A DNA stretch of 26,751 nucleotides, taken from a virus. The notes under the pieces were generated by a model. The model was not told where the DNA came from. It was given only the letters and a program-made list of their open reading frames with translations, and did no database searches. Both the position numbers and the translations under genes were made by a program. The stretch covers positions 1 to 26,751 of IMG/VR virus record IMGVR_UViG_3300025646_000296, one strand, 5' to 3'. Positions 2,886 through 15,784 of this stretch are shown in pieces (positions within the stretch are counted from its first letter, which is position 1; every line of letters begins with the position of its first letter).

Positions 2886-3192
2886 TCTCACGCCCTCACG
2901 CCTTGTGCCGCAAGGGATCTCACGATTTCTCACGCCTTCTCACGCCTGCCGTGAGACGAAATCCCTTCCAGCGCAAGGCTTCTCACGTTCTCACACTTTT
3001 TTCCTAAATATAGATATTTATAGAGAGGGTCACCTCTCAATTTTTTTTTACCTATGTCTATAGGGGGGTGTCTTCCCAAAGCGTGAGACCGTGAGAACGT
3101 GAGAAATCGCCGAAATCCATTGCTACGACTGGGGTCTGTCGTCTCACGCCACCGTGAGAAATCGGCCATTTCTCACGCTTTTGCCCCTCACG
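2886..3192. repeat. Heptad repeat array TCTCACG/CGTGAGA
   Basis: Twelve exact copies on either strand are visible. In the left arm TCTCACG starts at 2886, 2918, 2928, 2938 and 2981, with the reverse form at 2950. In the right arm CGTGAGA starts at 3082, 3090, 3098 and 3153, with the reverse form at 3142 and 3171. Near-copies lie at 2894, 2989 and 3186, and another at 3207 spans the end of the primase gene. By chance a 7-mer would occur far less than once here on both strands. Spacing is often 8 bp (2886/2894, 2981/2989, 3082/3090/3098) or 10 bp (2918/2928/2938). Orientation is mostly inverted between the two arms. Confidence 0.9.
3153..3177. repeat. 25-bp inverted repeat in the right arm
   Basis: CGTGAGAAAT (3153-3162) is the exact reverse complement of ATTTCTCACG (3168-3177), with CGGCC between. 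It is built from two heptads facing each other and extends the motif by AAAT on the inner side, which suggests the full recognition unit may be about CGTGAGAAAT. A dimeric DNA-binding protein would see it as one high-affinity palindromic site. Confidence 0.75.
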
Positions 3193-3208
3193 CGGCGCTG
3201 AATGGCCC

Positions 3209-5710
3209 TCACAGAGCACTGAATGGCACACCCACGGCCCTGGCGGAGCTGCCCATCCCCTTGAAGTAAATCGAGCCGGTCTTGCATGCTCCCGGCAGCC
3301 GTTCAAGCTGATCCGACCAAGAATTTGACCATTGAGTATCCCTAAGAATCGACGCAATAGCACTAGAACTGTTCGATATGCAGACCTTGCCGCGATCGAC
3401 CTTGATTCCGTTGCGTCCAAGGGTCGCTTCAACGGTCGATTTCAGTAGATCGCGATCGAGCACCTTGTCAGCTGCAATCTCGACCAGCTCGCCAATGGTG
3501 CGTGTGAGAGTCTTCACGTCGCCCTCGATCCTGAGCTGGTGTTGCATGATCAGGTCGATGCAGCGCTTCTCGTCGGTCTTTTCGTTGTTCTTGCAGAACT
3601 CTTGAAGTTGGGCTTCAGCGCAAAGCTGAAGCGCCTGCTCTTTGGTGGGTGCCTCGTCGTTACACATGACCCACGATCCGGCTAGCAGGGTGCCGTACTG
3701 GTCGCCGTTGCGTTGATTGCCGTCGAGGTATTCGGCTGCAGCTTCGGTGAGGACCGCGATTGATTCACGGACGACTGGGATGAGGCTGAAGATCCTGGCC
3801 TGAAGCTTGCGGCCGACTTCAGGCGAGATGGTGGATAAATCTTTCTTGAGACCGTCCCAATGCTTCTGCCGCTTGTCCTTGTCCGGGAATCTGTCTTCGG
3901 GTTTCTTTAGCGTAATTTGTGCAAAACGTGACCTATCCGCACCTTGCTTCAGTGCAGTGGCGATTGACGAAAACAGGAACATCGACCTAATTTTGAAATT
4001 CTGCATTGAGCCATCAGGTGAACCCTTAAGGATATTTGCGTCAGTCTCGAATGATGCGACGCGAGCAAGGCTAAGGATTGATTGGATTCTGGCTTGATCT
4101 GGTTTCTCGTTGGACTCTGCTTCGTCGAAGACAACTGGTAATGCGTCGGCTTTGAGCGATTGGCGGATACCGGCTTCAGATGTGTTACCGACAACGATCA
4201 GCCTCATGTCACCAAGTAGCGGTGCAATGAAGTCCTCAAGAAGCGTTGACTTGCCGGACCCAGCACCGGCAGTCAGCCACATGTGAGGCCGCCAGTCGAG
4301 GATGCCACAGATCGGAGCAAGTGCGATCCAGCCTGTTACGAGCATGGCTGAACCTTGCGTCTCCCAAAGAAATTTAGCTGCAATTTTTGCTATTTCTTCA
4401 GCTTCCTTTTTTGGCAGCGGCTTAGGCAAATCCGGCCCCTTGAGTTCAATCAAGCGTTGATAATAGTAAGAAGAATTTTCAAGTTGTTTGTTGCTTGCCC
4501 TCGCTTGACCATCAACGATGATGCGATCACCTAGGTGAAGAACTGATCGGCCATTGTCCCACCATGCGCCACGACCGCGAAGCATGGCTGGGTTATAGAA
4601 ACCGGCTTTGTAACAGCGCTGAAACAGTGAGGATGCGGCGGCAATCCAGTTGACGCCGGTTTTGTTTGGGTAAAGATTTTCCCAGTATGAGAGTGGTGCA
4701 AGTGCGCAGAGATTGGTGCCAGTGTGCGAACCACGAGCGAGCGCTACGACTTGACCAGTAGAGAAAGGCTGGTAGTAGAAGGTGTTTTCTTGAAAGCCAA
4801 TACAGATGAAGTGATCATCAGCTCCAGGCAGTGGGCCTGCTGCTTCTATCGGTTCAGGTTCAAACTCAGGTTTCGGGTCTTCTGGAGGTGTGATTGATTC
4901 GCTGAGGTGCGATTCGAGGTATTCGCGTGCCTGGTCCGGTGACCAGATCGCATCAGCAAGATCCCAGCCTTCGGGCGCGTTTTCTGGTGGTGTGACGATG
5001 CGGACTTCGACGACACCGTGCTGAAGGAGCTTCGGCGCGAGCTTGGCCATGGCTTGACGACCAACGTCATCAGCATCGGGCCAGAGGATGACGGTGCGAC
5101 CTTCGAGAGGCGACCAGTCTGCTTTGTTGAATGCTTTGCAACCTGATGGCCAGGTCGTGGCGACGTATTCGGGGAAGAGCTTGGCGGCTGCGTCTGCGGC
5201 CTTCTCCCCTTCGGCGATGATGACCGTGGCATCGGAGTTGGCGTGAAGGCCGAGCAGGTTGTAAATCGGCCTTGGCTCTGGAGGGGCCTTCCACTCCCAT
5301 TTTGTGCCGTTGTACCAAAGCGGGCGGATCTTCTTGCCGGGGAAGCGGCAGACGTAGAACTCGTTGGTGTATTGCCAGACGTTCTCTGCTTTGCCAATAG
5401 GTGGCTTCGGGATCGATGGTGCGACGCCTAGATGCTGCTCTACAGCACGGGCAGCGGACTTGAAATCCCAGTTCTTGACGCGCATGAGGAGATCCATACC
5501 GGATCCGCCGCCACCTTGATGGTCCTTGCCACCGCACTGATTGCAGTACCAAGAACCAGTACCATTCTGATCGTCAAAACGGTAGCGATCGGTTCCGCCG
5601 CAGAGAGGGCAGGGCTGATGGGTGTTGGTGAGCTGATCAGCGGAAAGGCCACCAAGGTTTTGCAGCAGGTCAGGCCACCTGCCGTTGGCGAGATCTTGAA
5701 TGCGGGTCAT
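3209..5710 (-). CDS. Phage primase-helicase (zinc ribbon, Toprim, ATPase domain)
   Basis: This 833-aa protein probably primes and unwinds phage DNA. The N-terminus has a primase zinc ribbon (C34-P-L-C37 and C56-N-Q-C59). A Toprim domain follows, with EGEK at 167-170 and WPDAD at 210-214. After an acidic Pro/Glu-rich linker (about 275-290) comes a DUF927-like P-loop domain with AGAGSGKST (Walker A, 481-489) and PVVFDEAE (Walker B, 525-532). The ATG at 5710 overlaps the stop codon of the RHH gene (ATGA), so the two are probably translationally coupled; frames upstream of that ATG lack family features. Its C-terminus abuts the repeat array. Family assignment is from motifs; the order resembles primases of phages and plasmids. 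Confidence 0.88.
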   Translation of the reverse strand: MTRIQDLANGRWPDLLQNLGGLSADQLTNTHQPCPLCGGTDRYRFDDQNGTGSWYCNQCGGKDHQGGGGSGMDLLMRVKNWDFKSAARAVEQHLGVAPSIPKPPIGKAENVWQYTNEFYVCRFPGKKIRPLWYNGTKWEWKAPPEPRPIYNLLGLHANSDATVIIAEGEKAADAAAKLFPEYVATTWPSGCKAFNKADWSPLEGRTVILWPDADDVGRQAMAKLAPKLLQHGVVEVRIVTPPENAPEGWDLADAIWSPDQAREYLESHLSESITPPEDPKPEFEPEPIEAAGPLPGADDHFICIGFQENTFYYQPFSTGQVVALARGSHTGTNLCALAPLSYWENLYPNKTGVNWIAAASSLFQRCYKAGFYNPAMLRGRGAWWDNGRSVLHLGDRIIVDGQARASNKQLENSSYYYQRLIELKGPDLPKPLPKKEAEEIAKIAAKFLWETQGSAMLVTGWIALAPICGILDWRPHMWLTAGAGSGKSTLLEDFIAPLLGDMRLIVVGNTSEAGIRQSLKADALPVVFDEAESNEKPDQARIQSILSLARVASFETDANILKGSPDGSMQNFKIRSMFLFSSIATALKQGADRSRFAQITLKKPEDRFPDKDKRQKHWDGLKKDLSTISPEVGRKLQARIFSLIPVVRESIAVLTEAAAEYLDGNQRNGDQYGTLLAGSWVMCNDEAPTKEQALQLCAEAQLQEFCKNNEKTDEKRCIDLIMQHQLRIEGDVKTLTRTIGELVEIAADKVLDRDLLKSTVEATLGRNGIKVDRGKVCISNSSSAIASILRDTQWSNSWSDQLERLPGACKTGSIYFKGMGSSARAVGVPFSAL

Positions 5711-5853
5711 GCTTGGTCGCGCTCCATGGCGGCAGCAATAAGGGAGCGGATCAGCGCAGCTCGCGACATGAGCTGACCGGCCCTGGAATCGAGCCACTGA
5801 AGCTGCTCGACTGGAAGCTCAAGGGATATGGCCTTCTTCCGTTGTTTTGACAT
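5707..5853 (-). CDS. Ribbon-helix-helix DNA-binding protein, 48 aa
   Basis: The frame reads MSKQRKKAISLELPVEQLQW, then LDSRAGQLMSRAALIRSLIA and AAMERDQA. A basic tail, a short strand (KAISLELP), helix 1 (VEQLQWLDSRAGQ) and helix 2 starting SRAALIRSLIAAA are the standard MetJ/Arc/CopG fold. Such proteins bind as dimers, with the strands in the major groove, often at tandem short repeats. Its stop overlaps the primase-helicase ATG. A second in-frame ATG at 5862 would add three residues. A likely promoter lies just upstream. Two repeat sets are candidate targets: GTCAACC at its own promoter and the TCTCACG array beyond the primase gene. The target is inference. Confidence 0.75.
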   Translation of the reverse strand: MSKQRKKAISLELPVEQLQWLDSRAGQLMSRAALIRSLIAAAMERDQA

Positions 5854-5862
5854 GGTTGCCAT

Positions 5863-7302
5863 ATGGGTTTGATGCCGTTACTATACGAGTCAACCTGTAT
5901 CGGTCAACCCTTGAGCGACTTGATTCTGAACGAGGGGCAGCAGGCTGCCCTTGATGCGATCGTAGGCGGAGCGGAAGATTTCGCCCTTCATGGCGCTGCT
6001 GGCACTGGCAAGACAACCGTGCTGCAAGTTGCGGCAAAGCTGCTGGACCAAAAGCGTGTGATCTTTTTGGCACCTACCAACAAGGCGTTAACTGTTCTAC
6101 AGAGCAAGCTGCCGGATGGTTCCTTTTCGAGAACGATTCAGTCGTTCCTTGGAGTGAAGAGAAGAATCGAAGAGGGTGTGGAGCTTTTCGAGGTTACATC
6201 TGATGGAATACAAAAGGCCGCTCAACTTCTCCATGAGAAGGAGTTTGACCTGGTTATTGTTGACGAATCTTCTATGATTTCGTCCGAAATAGAGAATGCA
6301 CTGGTTTCGGCAATCAGCGGCTCAAGCAAGTTTGTTCGTTGTATTTGGTCTGGTGACAAATATCAACTTCCGCCTCCGTCTGGAGAGAAAGCTTTGTCTT
6401 TCTGGCAACCTAAATACGCAGTTGAGCTTGCGGAGGTTGTCAGGCATGGCGGCGCAGTTCTTGACTATGCTACAAGGATAAGGAGAGACTTCGAGAAGCT
6501 TGCCGAATCCCCTGAAGCATCCAAGAAGGGTGGTAGCGAGATTTTATTGCTAGAGGAGCACAAGTGGGAGAGAGAGTTTATTGAAGACGTAAGGAAAAAC
6601 GGAACAACATCAAGAGCTATTTGTTGGAAAAATGCAAGCGTTAATGCTCTTTCTTCTAGTCTGAGACTTGAGCTTTTTGGTCCTGACACCGCGCTCAAGT
6701 GGTTGCCGGGAGAGGTTTTGCAGTTCAGGAAAAGGTACATCACGCCGACAATTGACCAAGCCAGGTTCAACAATTCGTCCGAGGTCGTGGTACTTGAGAC
6801 GAAAGATGTTACTGTAGATGAATCCATATTTCAACATTTTAAGCTTGAATACAGCACCACCATCAAAGGCGTAGATGGTGTTGTTGAGTGGAAGCCGCAA
6901 GGAACTGTTCATAGGCTCAGGGTTTCTCGAATCGATTTGTTGACAGGCGAGAAGAGTGAAGGGTATGTTGACAACGTTTATACATTGCCATCGGTTTCGC
7001 CGCTGAAAACTAGCCTCTCGAAGGTAAAGCAAAACCTGAGAAGAATTAAGGGCAGCAAGTATAAGTATTCTCCCTCTGAGTACAAAAAAGCGTGGAATGT
7101 TGTGACCGCGTTTGAAGATTACTTTGCGTCTCTCGGATCTGCGTTCGTGATGACAGTCCATCGCTCGCAGGGATCTACATTCGATAAGACCTACATCCAT
7201 AAAGACATCTGGAATGGCAGGTTCAGAGGAGCGGAATCGCTGAATCCGCTTGTTTACACGGCTACAACCAGATCCAGGATTGCGAGTATTTTTTCCTACT
7301 GA
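5863..7302 (+). CDS. SF1 DNA helicase, Dda/RecD2-like
   Basis: The motifs are those of a superfamily 1B helicase: GAAGTGKT (Walker A, 44-51), VIVDESS (motif II, 131-137), GDKYQLPP (motif III, 164-171), MTVHRSQGST (motif V, from 430) and YTATTRS (motif VI). At up to 479 aa it is close to T4 Dda (439 aa), which removes proteins from DNA and assists replication and recombination. The divergent RHH promoter overlaps the first 15 codons. The homologous part starts near LNEGQQAAL (residue 22), so a start later than ATG 5863 (ATG 5872 or TTG 5911/5920) is possible. It heads the plus-strand early operon and is followed after 5 nt by a second helicase. Confidence 0.85.
   Translation: MGLMPLLYESTCIGQPLSDLILNEGQQAALDAIVGGAEDFALHGAAGTGKTTVLQVAAKLLDQKRVIFLAPTNKALTVLQSKLPDGSFSRTIQSFLGVKRRIEEGVELFEVTSDGIQKAAQLLHEKEFDLVIVDESSMISSEIENALVSAISGSSKFVRCIWSGDKYQLPPPSGEKALSFWQPKYAVELAEVVRHGGAVLDYATRIRRDFEKLAESPEASKKGGSEILLLEEHKWEREFIEDVRKNGTTSRAICWKNASVNALSSSLRLELFGPDTALKWLPGEVLQFRKRYITPTIDQARFNNSSEVVVLETKDVTVDESIFQHFKLEYSTTIKGVDGVVEWKPQGTVHRLRVSRIDLLTGEKSEGYVDNVYTLPSVSPLKTSLSKVKQNLRRIKGSKYKYSPSEYKKAWNVVTAFEDYFASLGSAFVMTVHRSQGSTFDKTYIHKDIWNGRFRGAESLNPLVYTATTRSRIASIFSY
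5880..5907 (-). promoter_or_regulatory. Sigma70-type promoter for the RHH/primase operon
   Basis: On the minus strand TTGACC (5907-5902) is followed after 16 nt by TATAGT (5885-5880). The predicted transcript would begin about 10-20 nt before the RHH start codons. The element lies inside the first codons of the divergent helicase frame, so that gene's true start may be further in or the two transcripts may interfere. Confidence 0.55.
5889..5909. repeat. Direct repeat GTCAACC x2 at the divergent promoter (candidate operator)
   Basis: GTCAACC occurs at 5889-5895 and 5903-5909, starts 14 bp apart. One copy covers the -35 element of the minus-strand promoter and the other sits in the spacer. A protein bound here would block RNA polymerase. 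The RHH product transcribed from this promoter is the obvious autoregulation candidate, but this is inference. Confidence 0.5.
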
Positions 7303-14913: not shown

Positions 14914-15059
14914 GCAAACCATCCCGCCGCGAGCGCTACTTGAAAGCGCTTGAGATCGCCGAACGCCATGGCAATCGGTTCATGGCCGCAAACATCCGCG
15001 CTGAGTTGCGGAAGCTCGACGCGGAGCCCACCACCACCCCGGAGAGATTCAATGACTGA
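14910..15059 (+). CDS. Hypothetical protein, 49 aa
   Basis: The ATG at 14910 overlaps the ThyX stop (ATGA). The product is basic and helical (SKPSRRERYLKALEIAERHG, then AANIRAELRKLDAEP). It ends in FND with the stop codon inside the ATGACTGA start of the next gene. This is the first gene of the small-gene cassette by its junction type. No function known. Confidence 0.6.
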   Translation: MSKPSRRERYLKALEIAERHGNRFMAANIRAELRKLDAEPTTTPERFND

Positions 15060-15372
15060 CCACCCCATCACCCCACCGACTGAGCTGGTGCAGCAGTTGT
15101 ACGGGCTGCCTCAGATAAGGGCAATAGAAAAGGCATTTGAGGCGGGCGCCAACGAAGAGCTGGAGGCGTGCATTGCTTGGTTTGACAAACACATCCCTGG
15201 ATATGAGCTAGTGGCCGACCGTCTCCGCGCCGGACGCCGCCCGAAGCCACCGAGTCTGGCAGAGCAGGGGTTGGCGGCGCTGCGGTCAACGCCCTGCACC
15301 GAACAGTGTCACTACGACGCACTGTTCGCCGCCCTCAACCGCCTCGCTGAGCTGGAGGATTCCAATGACTGA
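15052..15372 (+). CDS. MTD-type cassette protein, paralogue 1, 106 aa
   Basis: Starts MTDHPITPPTELVQQL after GGAGAG. The shared frame of this family is: a Pro-rich N-terminus, an amphipathic helix with EELEACIAW, a short variable segment, the RPKPPSLAEQ motif and a C-terminal helix ending in ND. The last residues SND overlap the ATG of paralogue 2. The same family is common, I believe, in picocyanobacterial phages, always unnamed. Function unknown; the helical build suits a protein-binding adaptor. Confidence 0.65.
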   Translation: MTDHPITPPTELVQQLYGLPQIRAIEKAFEAGANEELEACIAWFDKHIPGYELVADRLRAGRRPKPPSLAEQGLAALRSTPCTEQCHYDALFAALNRLAELEDSND

Positions 15373-15784
15373 TCACCCCACCATCGTCCCACCGACCACC
15401 ATCGTCCCACCGCGAGAGCTGAAGCAACAGTGGCTAGAGCAGGCCCCGCGCTATCGCGATTGTGGCGTGGGCCGCGCACATTGGCTGATAGACCGCGCCG
15501 CCCAGTGGGTTTACGAGCAATGCGGCAAGGTCAACGAGGCCCAGCTGCAGAAGGCCCGTGACGAGGAGCTGGAGGCGTGCTGTGAGTGGTTACGCCACGA
15601 GTACGGTTACGGCGAAGAACTCGCCCTCAGGCTCCGCGCCGCCTTCCGCCCGAAGCCACCGAGCTTGAAGGCGCAGGCGTTGGAATTAGCAAGACCGGCA
15701 GGAACAGAAGGAGCTTATGTGACTTTTGGTCCTGAAGAACTTGCACTTATTCGCCGCGCCCTGGAGGCACTTCCTAATGACTGA
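15365..15784 (+). CDS. MTD-type cassette protein, paralogue 2, 139 aa
   Basis: Starts MTDHPTIVPPTTIVPPRELK: the Thr-Ile-Val-Pro-Pro unit is repeated, so the N-terminus has a small internal duplication. EELEACCEWL replaces EELEACIAW of paralogue 1, and RPKPPSLKAQAL follows. The C-terminus IRRALEALPND supplies GGAGG (15763-15767) for the next start codon. GAGCTGGAGGCGTG is shared at DNA level with paralogues 1 and 3. No function known. Confidence 0.65.
   Translation: MTDHPTIVPPTTIVPPRELKQQWLEQAPRYRDCGVGRAHWLIDRAAQWVYEQCGKVNEAQLQKARDEELEACCEWLRHEYGYGEELALRLRAAFRPKPPSLKAQALELARPAGTEGAYVTFGPEELALIRRALEALPND

Follow-up and report, generated by a model that had tools for sequence, protein, structure and literature searches.

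What is the function of a dense cluster of 7-bp repeats that adjoins a phage primase-helicase gene, starting at its stop codon? The window analysed here is an IMG/VR virus record of 26,751 nucleotides, which may be a fragment. A first-pass annotation of its sequence had proposed three roles that could fit such repeats: an iteron origin, an operator array or a centromere-like site. The results presented below, which combine sequence comparison, structure prediction and analogy with characterised systems, argue that the array is very probably a phage replication origin recognised by the adjacent primase-helicase. Retargeting such an initiator needs a matching change in a dozen or more origin sites, and the process is little understood.

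Organization of the heptad array

When both strands of the whole window are counted, twelve exact copies of TCTCACG/CGTGAGA are found, all within 2886-3177, in agreement with the first-pass annotation; the rest of the 26,751-nt window contains zero copies. Four variants with one mismatch bring the total to 16 heptads. With these variants, the array covers 2886-3213. It had been described as about 310 bp of non-coding DNA, an extent that needs correction at one end, since the array reaches across the primase-helicase stop codon. The features are as follows.

3209-5797, minus strand: primase-helicase ORF, 862 codons, the proposed initiator (Pfam, PHROGs)
3230-3283, minus strand: codons ~838-855 (placed by counting from the stop codon, 3209-3211), encoding the C-terminal hairpin of the structural prediction, in which Ser842 and Tyr844 lie
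3142-3213, unstranded: block A, heptads 3142, 3153 (minus) and 3171, variants 3186 and 3207; spans the primase stop codon, 3209-3211
3082-3104, plus strand: block B, three CGTGAGA with an 8-bp period, directed outward from the core
2996-3081, unstranded: AT-rich core, where unwinding presumably occurs; AT content is 73% over 2997-3060, in line with the core first described
2981-2995, minus strand: block C, TCTCACG 2981 and TCTCACA 2989 with an 8-bp period, directed outward from the core
2886-2956, unstranded: block D, heptads 2886, 2894 (variant), 2918, 2928, 2938 and 2950 (minus)
Exact heptads: 2886, 2918, 2928, 2938, 2950 (minus), 2981, 3082 (minus), 3090 (minus), 3098 (minus), 3142, 3153 (minus), 3171
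One-mismatch heptads: 2894 CCTCACG, 2989 TCTCACA, 3186 CCTCACG, 3207 CCTCACA

The count and its comparison with shuffled sequence, a check suggested with the first description, showed a heptad confined to the array. The 12 copies of TCTCACG in the window compare with a mean of 4.5 and a maximum of 10 in whole-window shuffles, and the top 7-mer count per 300 bp is 12 versus 3-4 in 60 dinucleotide shuffles. The heptads had been thought to face each other, for the most part, across the core. The reverse is observed at the core-adjacent sites (2981, 2989; 3082-3104), which, read as CGTGAGA, face outward on both sides, and the outer blocks contain heptads in both orientations. Block D includes an inverted pair, 2938/2950, with an offset of 12 bp.

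Heptad spacings in the window are 8, 10, 11 and 12 bp. The 8- and 10-bp spacings noted earlier are therefore present, together with two others, and the tandem period in relatives is mostly 8-9 bp. Sites spaced in this way do not lie on one face of the DNA, and an 8-9 bp period is at odds with the cooperative binding on one face that had been suggested.

The plus strand of the AT-rich core carries, at 3023-3038, a GC-containing hairpin (GAGAGGGTCACCTCTC) with a T run after it. It could be terminator-like, or else serve a structural role within the core.

The primase-helicase and its neighbours

Alignment with relatives indicates that the primase-helicase likely starts at an ATG near 5710. The protein is composed of a Zn ribbon, a Toprim region, an AAA+ helicase with a P-loop and a C-terminal domain bearing residues 842 and 844. 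Pfam gave Zn_Ribbon_Prim above cut-off, Toprim below cut-off and a P-loop; the helicase half alone gave weak P-loop matches only. To the right of the gene, helicases and other DNA-metabolism genes are found on the plus strand. On the far side of the array is a minor tail gene with the same reading direction as the primase gene.

The location of the array between these two co-directional genes would suit a regulatory site, where the primase-helicase or another phage protein bound to the heptads would control tail-gene transcription or readthrough of the primase gene. We consider this very unlikely. A search of the array region for a sigma-70-like promoter found none, the AT-rich core with its tandem flanking sites looks origin-like, and the array persists in relatives while the gene beyond it changes.

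Elsewhere in the window, the match of the ORF at 1095-1919 to NAD-dependent DNA ligase is limited to the N-terminal part of that enzyme, which suggests a shortened or interrupted ligase gene. The overlapping adjacent ORFs 14950-15372 and 15365-15784 both belong to phrog_32006, a family of unknown function, and apparently represent a tandem duplication.

Conservation of the array in relatives

The Synechococcus phage S-H1 and one IMG/VR contig encode primases 60-61% identical to that of the window. In both, the region directly downstream of the primase gene contains an array built in the same way, with CGTTAGG/CGTTCGG replacing CGTGAGA. The sample was enlarged with 80 further loci and three more scans to reach 116 close loci, plus many distant ones. 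The comparison with related phages that had been called for bears out conservation of the array, which follows the primase gene directly in nearly all close relatives: a 7-mer with at least 5 copies in 350 bp is present in 64 of 75 full-length downstream regions versus 29 of 2873 control tiles taken from the same loci. GC skew, also put forward as a check, gave a mixed answer. In the window the skew reaches a trough near 3500; in S-H1, however, no skew extremum coincides with the array. GC skew was therefore dropped as support for an origin.

The heptads of the close loci are CGTGAGA, CGTGAGG, CGTTAGG, TGTTAGG, CGTTAGA, CGTAAGA, CGTCAGA, CGTAACA and CGTTACA. They vary but mostly share the form nGTnAnn, with the same place and layout. 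In the orientation of the primase gene, block A is at the stop codon and is followed by B, the core, C and D. Block B is made of tandem reversed heptads with an 8-9 bp period in 52 of 56 relatives; block C is made of tandem forward heptads in 49/56, and the inverted pair of block D, with its 12-bp offset, also occurs in 49/56. The core has a median length of 95 bp and an AT fraction of 0.56, versus 0.40 for whole loci.

Relatives in picocyanobacterial genomes have CGT(T/C)ACA arrays, often with low copy number. Heptads of distant relatives are GGTTACA, GGTAACA, CGTGACA, GGTTAGG or TGTAAAC, a few relatives have unrelated repeats, and in some the array is located away from the primase gene. Dense unrelated repeats downstream of the primase were seen in the distant loci L105 (TGCAGCA, 12 copies), L103 (CAATTTA, 9 copies) and L109 (TGGCCCA, 7 copies).

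The gene after the array varies among relatives (tail protein, sliding clamp or, as judged by eye, a small RHH-like protein) and arrays are equally present. This observation bears on the possibility that an RHH protein, for instance omega, uses the array as a repressor or centromere-like site. The 7-bp units with a TCAC core are reminiscent of such sites, and the small RHH-like genes identified by eye do follow the array in some relatives. Nevertheless, we regard this explanation as extremely unlikely. No RHH Pfam family was matched by the subset of 30 window ORFs that was scanned, the next gene in the window is the minor tail gene, the array is also present where the following gene is not RHH-like, and heptad identity follows residues of the primase, as described in the next section.

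Covariation of the heptads with residues 844 and 842

Across the sequences compared, the heptads of an array switch together, and their changes parallel those at residues 844 and 842 of the adjacent protein. This covariation, seen in more than 100 related phages, suggests how such initiators may switch DNA target. Residue 844 is Tyr or His with heptads ending in AGA, Trp with AGG and Arg with ACA. The counts for heptad positions 6-7 against residue 844 are 49 for CA-Arg, 30 for GG-Trp, 21 for GA-Tyr/His and 4 for other combinations; the automatic procedure assigned no heptad to 12 of the 116 loci, of which five were filled manually, and the ACA heptads, being nearly palindromic, were oriented by choice (C at position 1), consistent with block C. 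Five loci whose arrays were chimeric or poorly defined were excluded, and 57 representatives with well-defined arrays were retained for a column test. Among 814 columns, 844 alone has residue sets that are disjoint among the three heptad classes; the column searches for 844 and 842 were post hoc, after the data had been seen.

A tree built from residues 60-790 has 8 changes in each of the two traits, and independent pairs agree in 6 of 6 cases (p = 0.03). Simulated labelings produced a tracking column in 0 of 185 cases on this tree and in 0 of 247 on the tree of the C-terminal region, where there are just 3 independent pairs in all, 1 of them supported. In addition, the differences between the L060 and L077 primases are mostly at both ends of the protein. 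Together with the few independent pairs on the C-terminal tree, this suggests that some switches may be transfers of a cassette carrying the C-terminus plus the origin.

Ser842 goes with G at heptad position 4 (8/8 versus 1/49, a raw count that ignores relatedness), with three independent pairs; the close pair L051/L069 is part of this pattern. It is absent from the distant locus L112, which has the heptad CGTGACA and no Ser. Residue 856 was also considered as a reader of position 4 and was rejected, as the fit is partial only.

Distant relatives mostly repeat the 844 pattern, with Trp in L107 and L116 and Arg in L096, L099, L102, L112, L342 and L343; the registers of L110, L124, L339 and L347 were set by eye. 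Two counterexamples were found, L098 (Trp with CGTAACA-like sites) and L013 (Arg with TGTAAGC).

Several arrays are mixed. In L077, L050, L087 and L095, CGTCAGA is found in block B and part of D, and CGTAAGA elsewhere; one protein may thus tolerate A or C at heptad position 4. In L150, where the array region extends to ~560 bases past the primase stop (locus ~5557-6064), blocks A and B have CGTGAGA and blocks C and D have CGTTACA. The L150 primase has Tyr844, matching its block A/B heptad. Its discordant halves may stem from recombination at a point within the core, or the assembly may be chimeric.

Structural models and comparison with known initiators

The last 190 residues were modeled with AlphaFold (pLDDT 92.5), from an input that excluded eight rows from named phage records. 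The model ends in a beta-hairpin made of residues 838-845 and 850-858. Residues 842 and 844 are two residues apart in the first strand of this predicted hairpin. If Arg844 faced the G paired with C6, the contact would be of a common kind.

A model of residues 320-862 (pLDDT 93.4) has SCCmec Cch as its best structural match (Z 15.8 over 423 residues). The SaPI5 primase-helicase follows at Z 13.8, and Foldseek finds SaPIbov1 Rep at E 3e-6. The helicase half matches MCM and D5-type helicases too, so that the fold class is broad. For the C-terminal domain alone the top match is again SaPIbov1 Rep, a weak one (Z 4.9), and a Foldseek search of the isolated domain against the PDB gave no significant match. 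Profile searches of PDB sequences with the primase-helicase gave nothing useful.

SaPI Rep is a self-loading AAA+ helicase with a short-iteron origin (PMC7581432). Its C-terminal domain recognises the iteron origin directly downstream of its own gene, and it appears to bind as two hexamers (PMC7581432). The phage protein shares with SaPIbov1 Rep and the SaPI5 primase-helicase an AAA+ helicase fold and an iteron array directly downstream of the gene. In contrast, it carries a fused DnaG-like Zn-ribbon/Toprim primase, unlike the AEP-type primases of SaPIs (PMC7581432). The C-terminal fold match is weak, and the PDB profile searches gave no detectable sequence match. In the SCCmec family, which provides the top match of the helicase half, the C-terminal domain of Cch2 binds direct repeats downstream of its own gene, a putative origin (PMC7581432). 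Unlike the phage protein, Cch and Cch2 have no fused DnaG-like primase, and the Cch2 site consists of just three AAGTG repeats.

P4 alpha is also a fused primase-helicase initiator with a Zn-ribbon/Toprim primase, and short DNA similarity is found in the Zn-ribbon part. P4 crr, directly downstream of alpha, has 8-bp direct and inverted (type 1) repeats, and its repeat GGTGAACA conforms to nGTnA. A profile comparison of the C-terminal domain with P4 alpha gave no match (hhalign probability 0.1), and sequence homology was therefore set aside, although the two may be related in fold. The P4 origin is divided into crr and a distant, separate ori. By this precedent, the phage array could be a cis-acting replication enhancer, bound by the primase-helicase while synthesis starts elsewhere. 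We find this unlikely, because a single array here includes an AT-rich core flanked on each side by tandem sites, an arrangement described for an origin and not for crr, and because the window, although the record may be incomplete, contains one heptad cluster and no second.

A proposed origin and recognition code

Taken together, the conserved place and layout of the array, its covariation with the primase-helicase and the iteron-binding relatives of the fold strongly favour an iteron origin, one of the roles initially listed. In the mechanism that we propose, the C-terminal domain of the primase-helicase would bind the heptads and helicase rings would assemble on the tandem blocks B and C flanking the core. 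The AT-rich core would then melt, and the helicase with its fused primase would launch two forks. Blocks A and D would be accessory sites. An 8-9 bp period leaves each site ~50-85 degrees short of a full turn; one may speculate that this could suit a six-fold ring.

More tentatively, residues 842 and 844, on one face of a beta-strand, might form a simple iteron recognition code. A few substitutions would then re-address the initiator, the whole array would be recoded and orthogonal replicons would arise in close phages. We see this as possible, with the balance slightly against it. If the code holds, rivalry of co-infecting elements could drive switching, as has been argued for the iterons of the V. 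cholerae PLE RepA origin and for ICP1 Odn, a system in which iterons and initiator-domain specificity co-evolve under inter-element conflict (PMC8263062). PLE RepA differs from the phage protein: it belongs to the RepA_N initiator family and has neither primase nor helicase (PMC7145576).

A literature search restricted to open-licence papers found no report of this origin family or of the residue-heptad correspondence. Both appear to be new, within an already known kind of replicon. The family supplies several natural switches, close sister pairs included, with a specific residue-to-base hypothesis, and it is a possible source of orthogonal replicons. Arrays of this type may also help to locate origins in phages that have not been cultured and in elements carried by picocyanobacterial chromosomes.

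Several picocyanobacterial genome record sets contain more than one primase-origin module: Synechococcus sp. HJ21-Hayes (L313, L315 and L335), Cyanobium sp. FGCU6 (L314 and L321) and Vulcanococcus sp. Clear-D1 (L331 and L332). The HJ21-Hayes copies all have CGTTACA.
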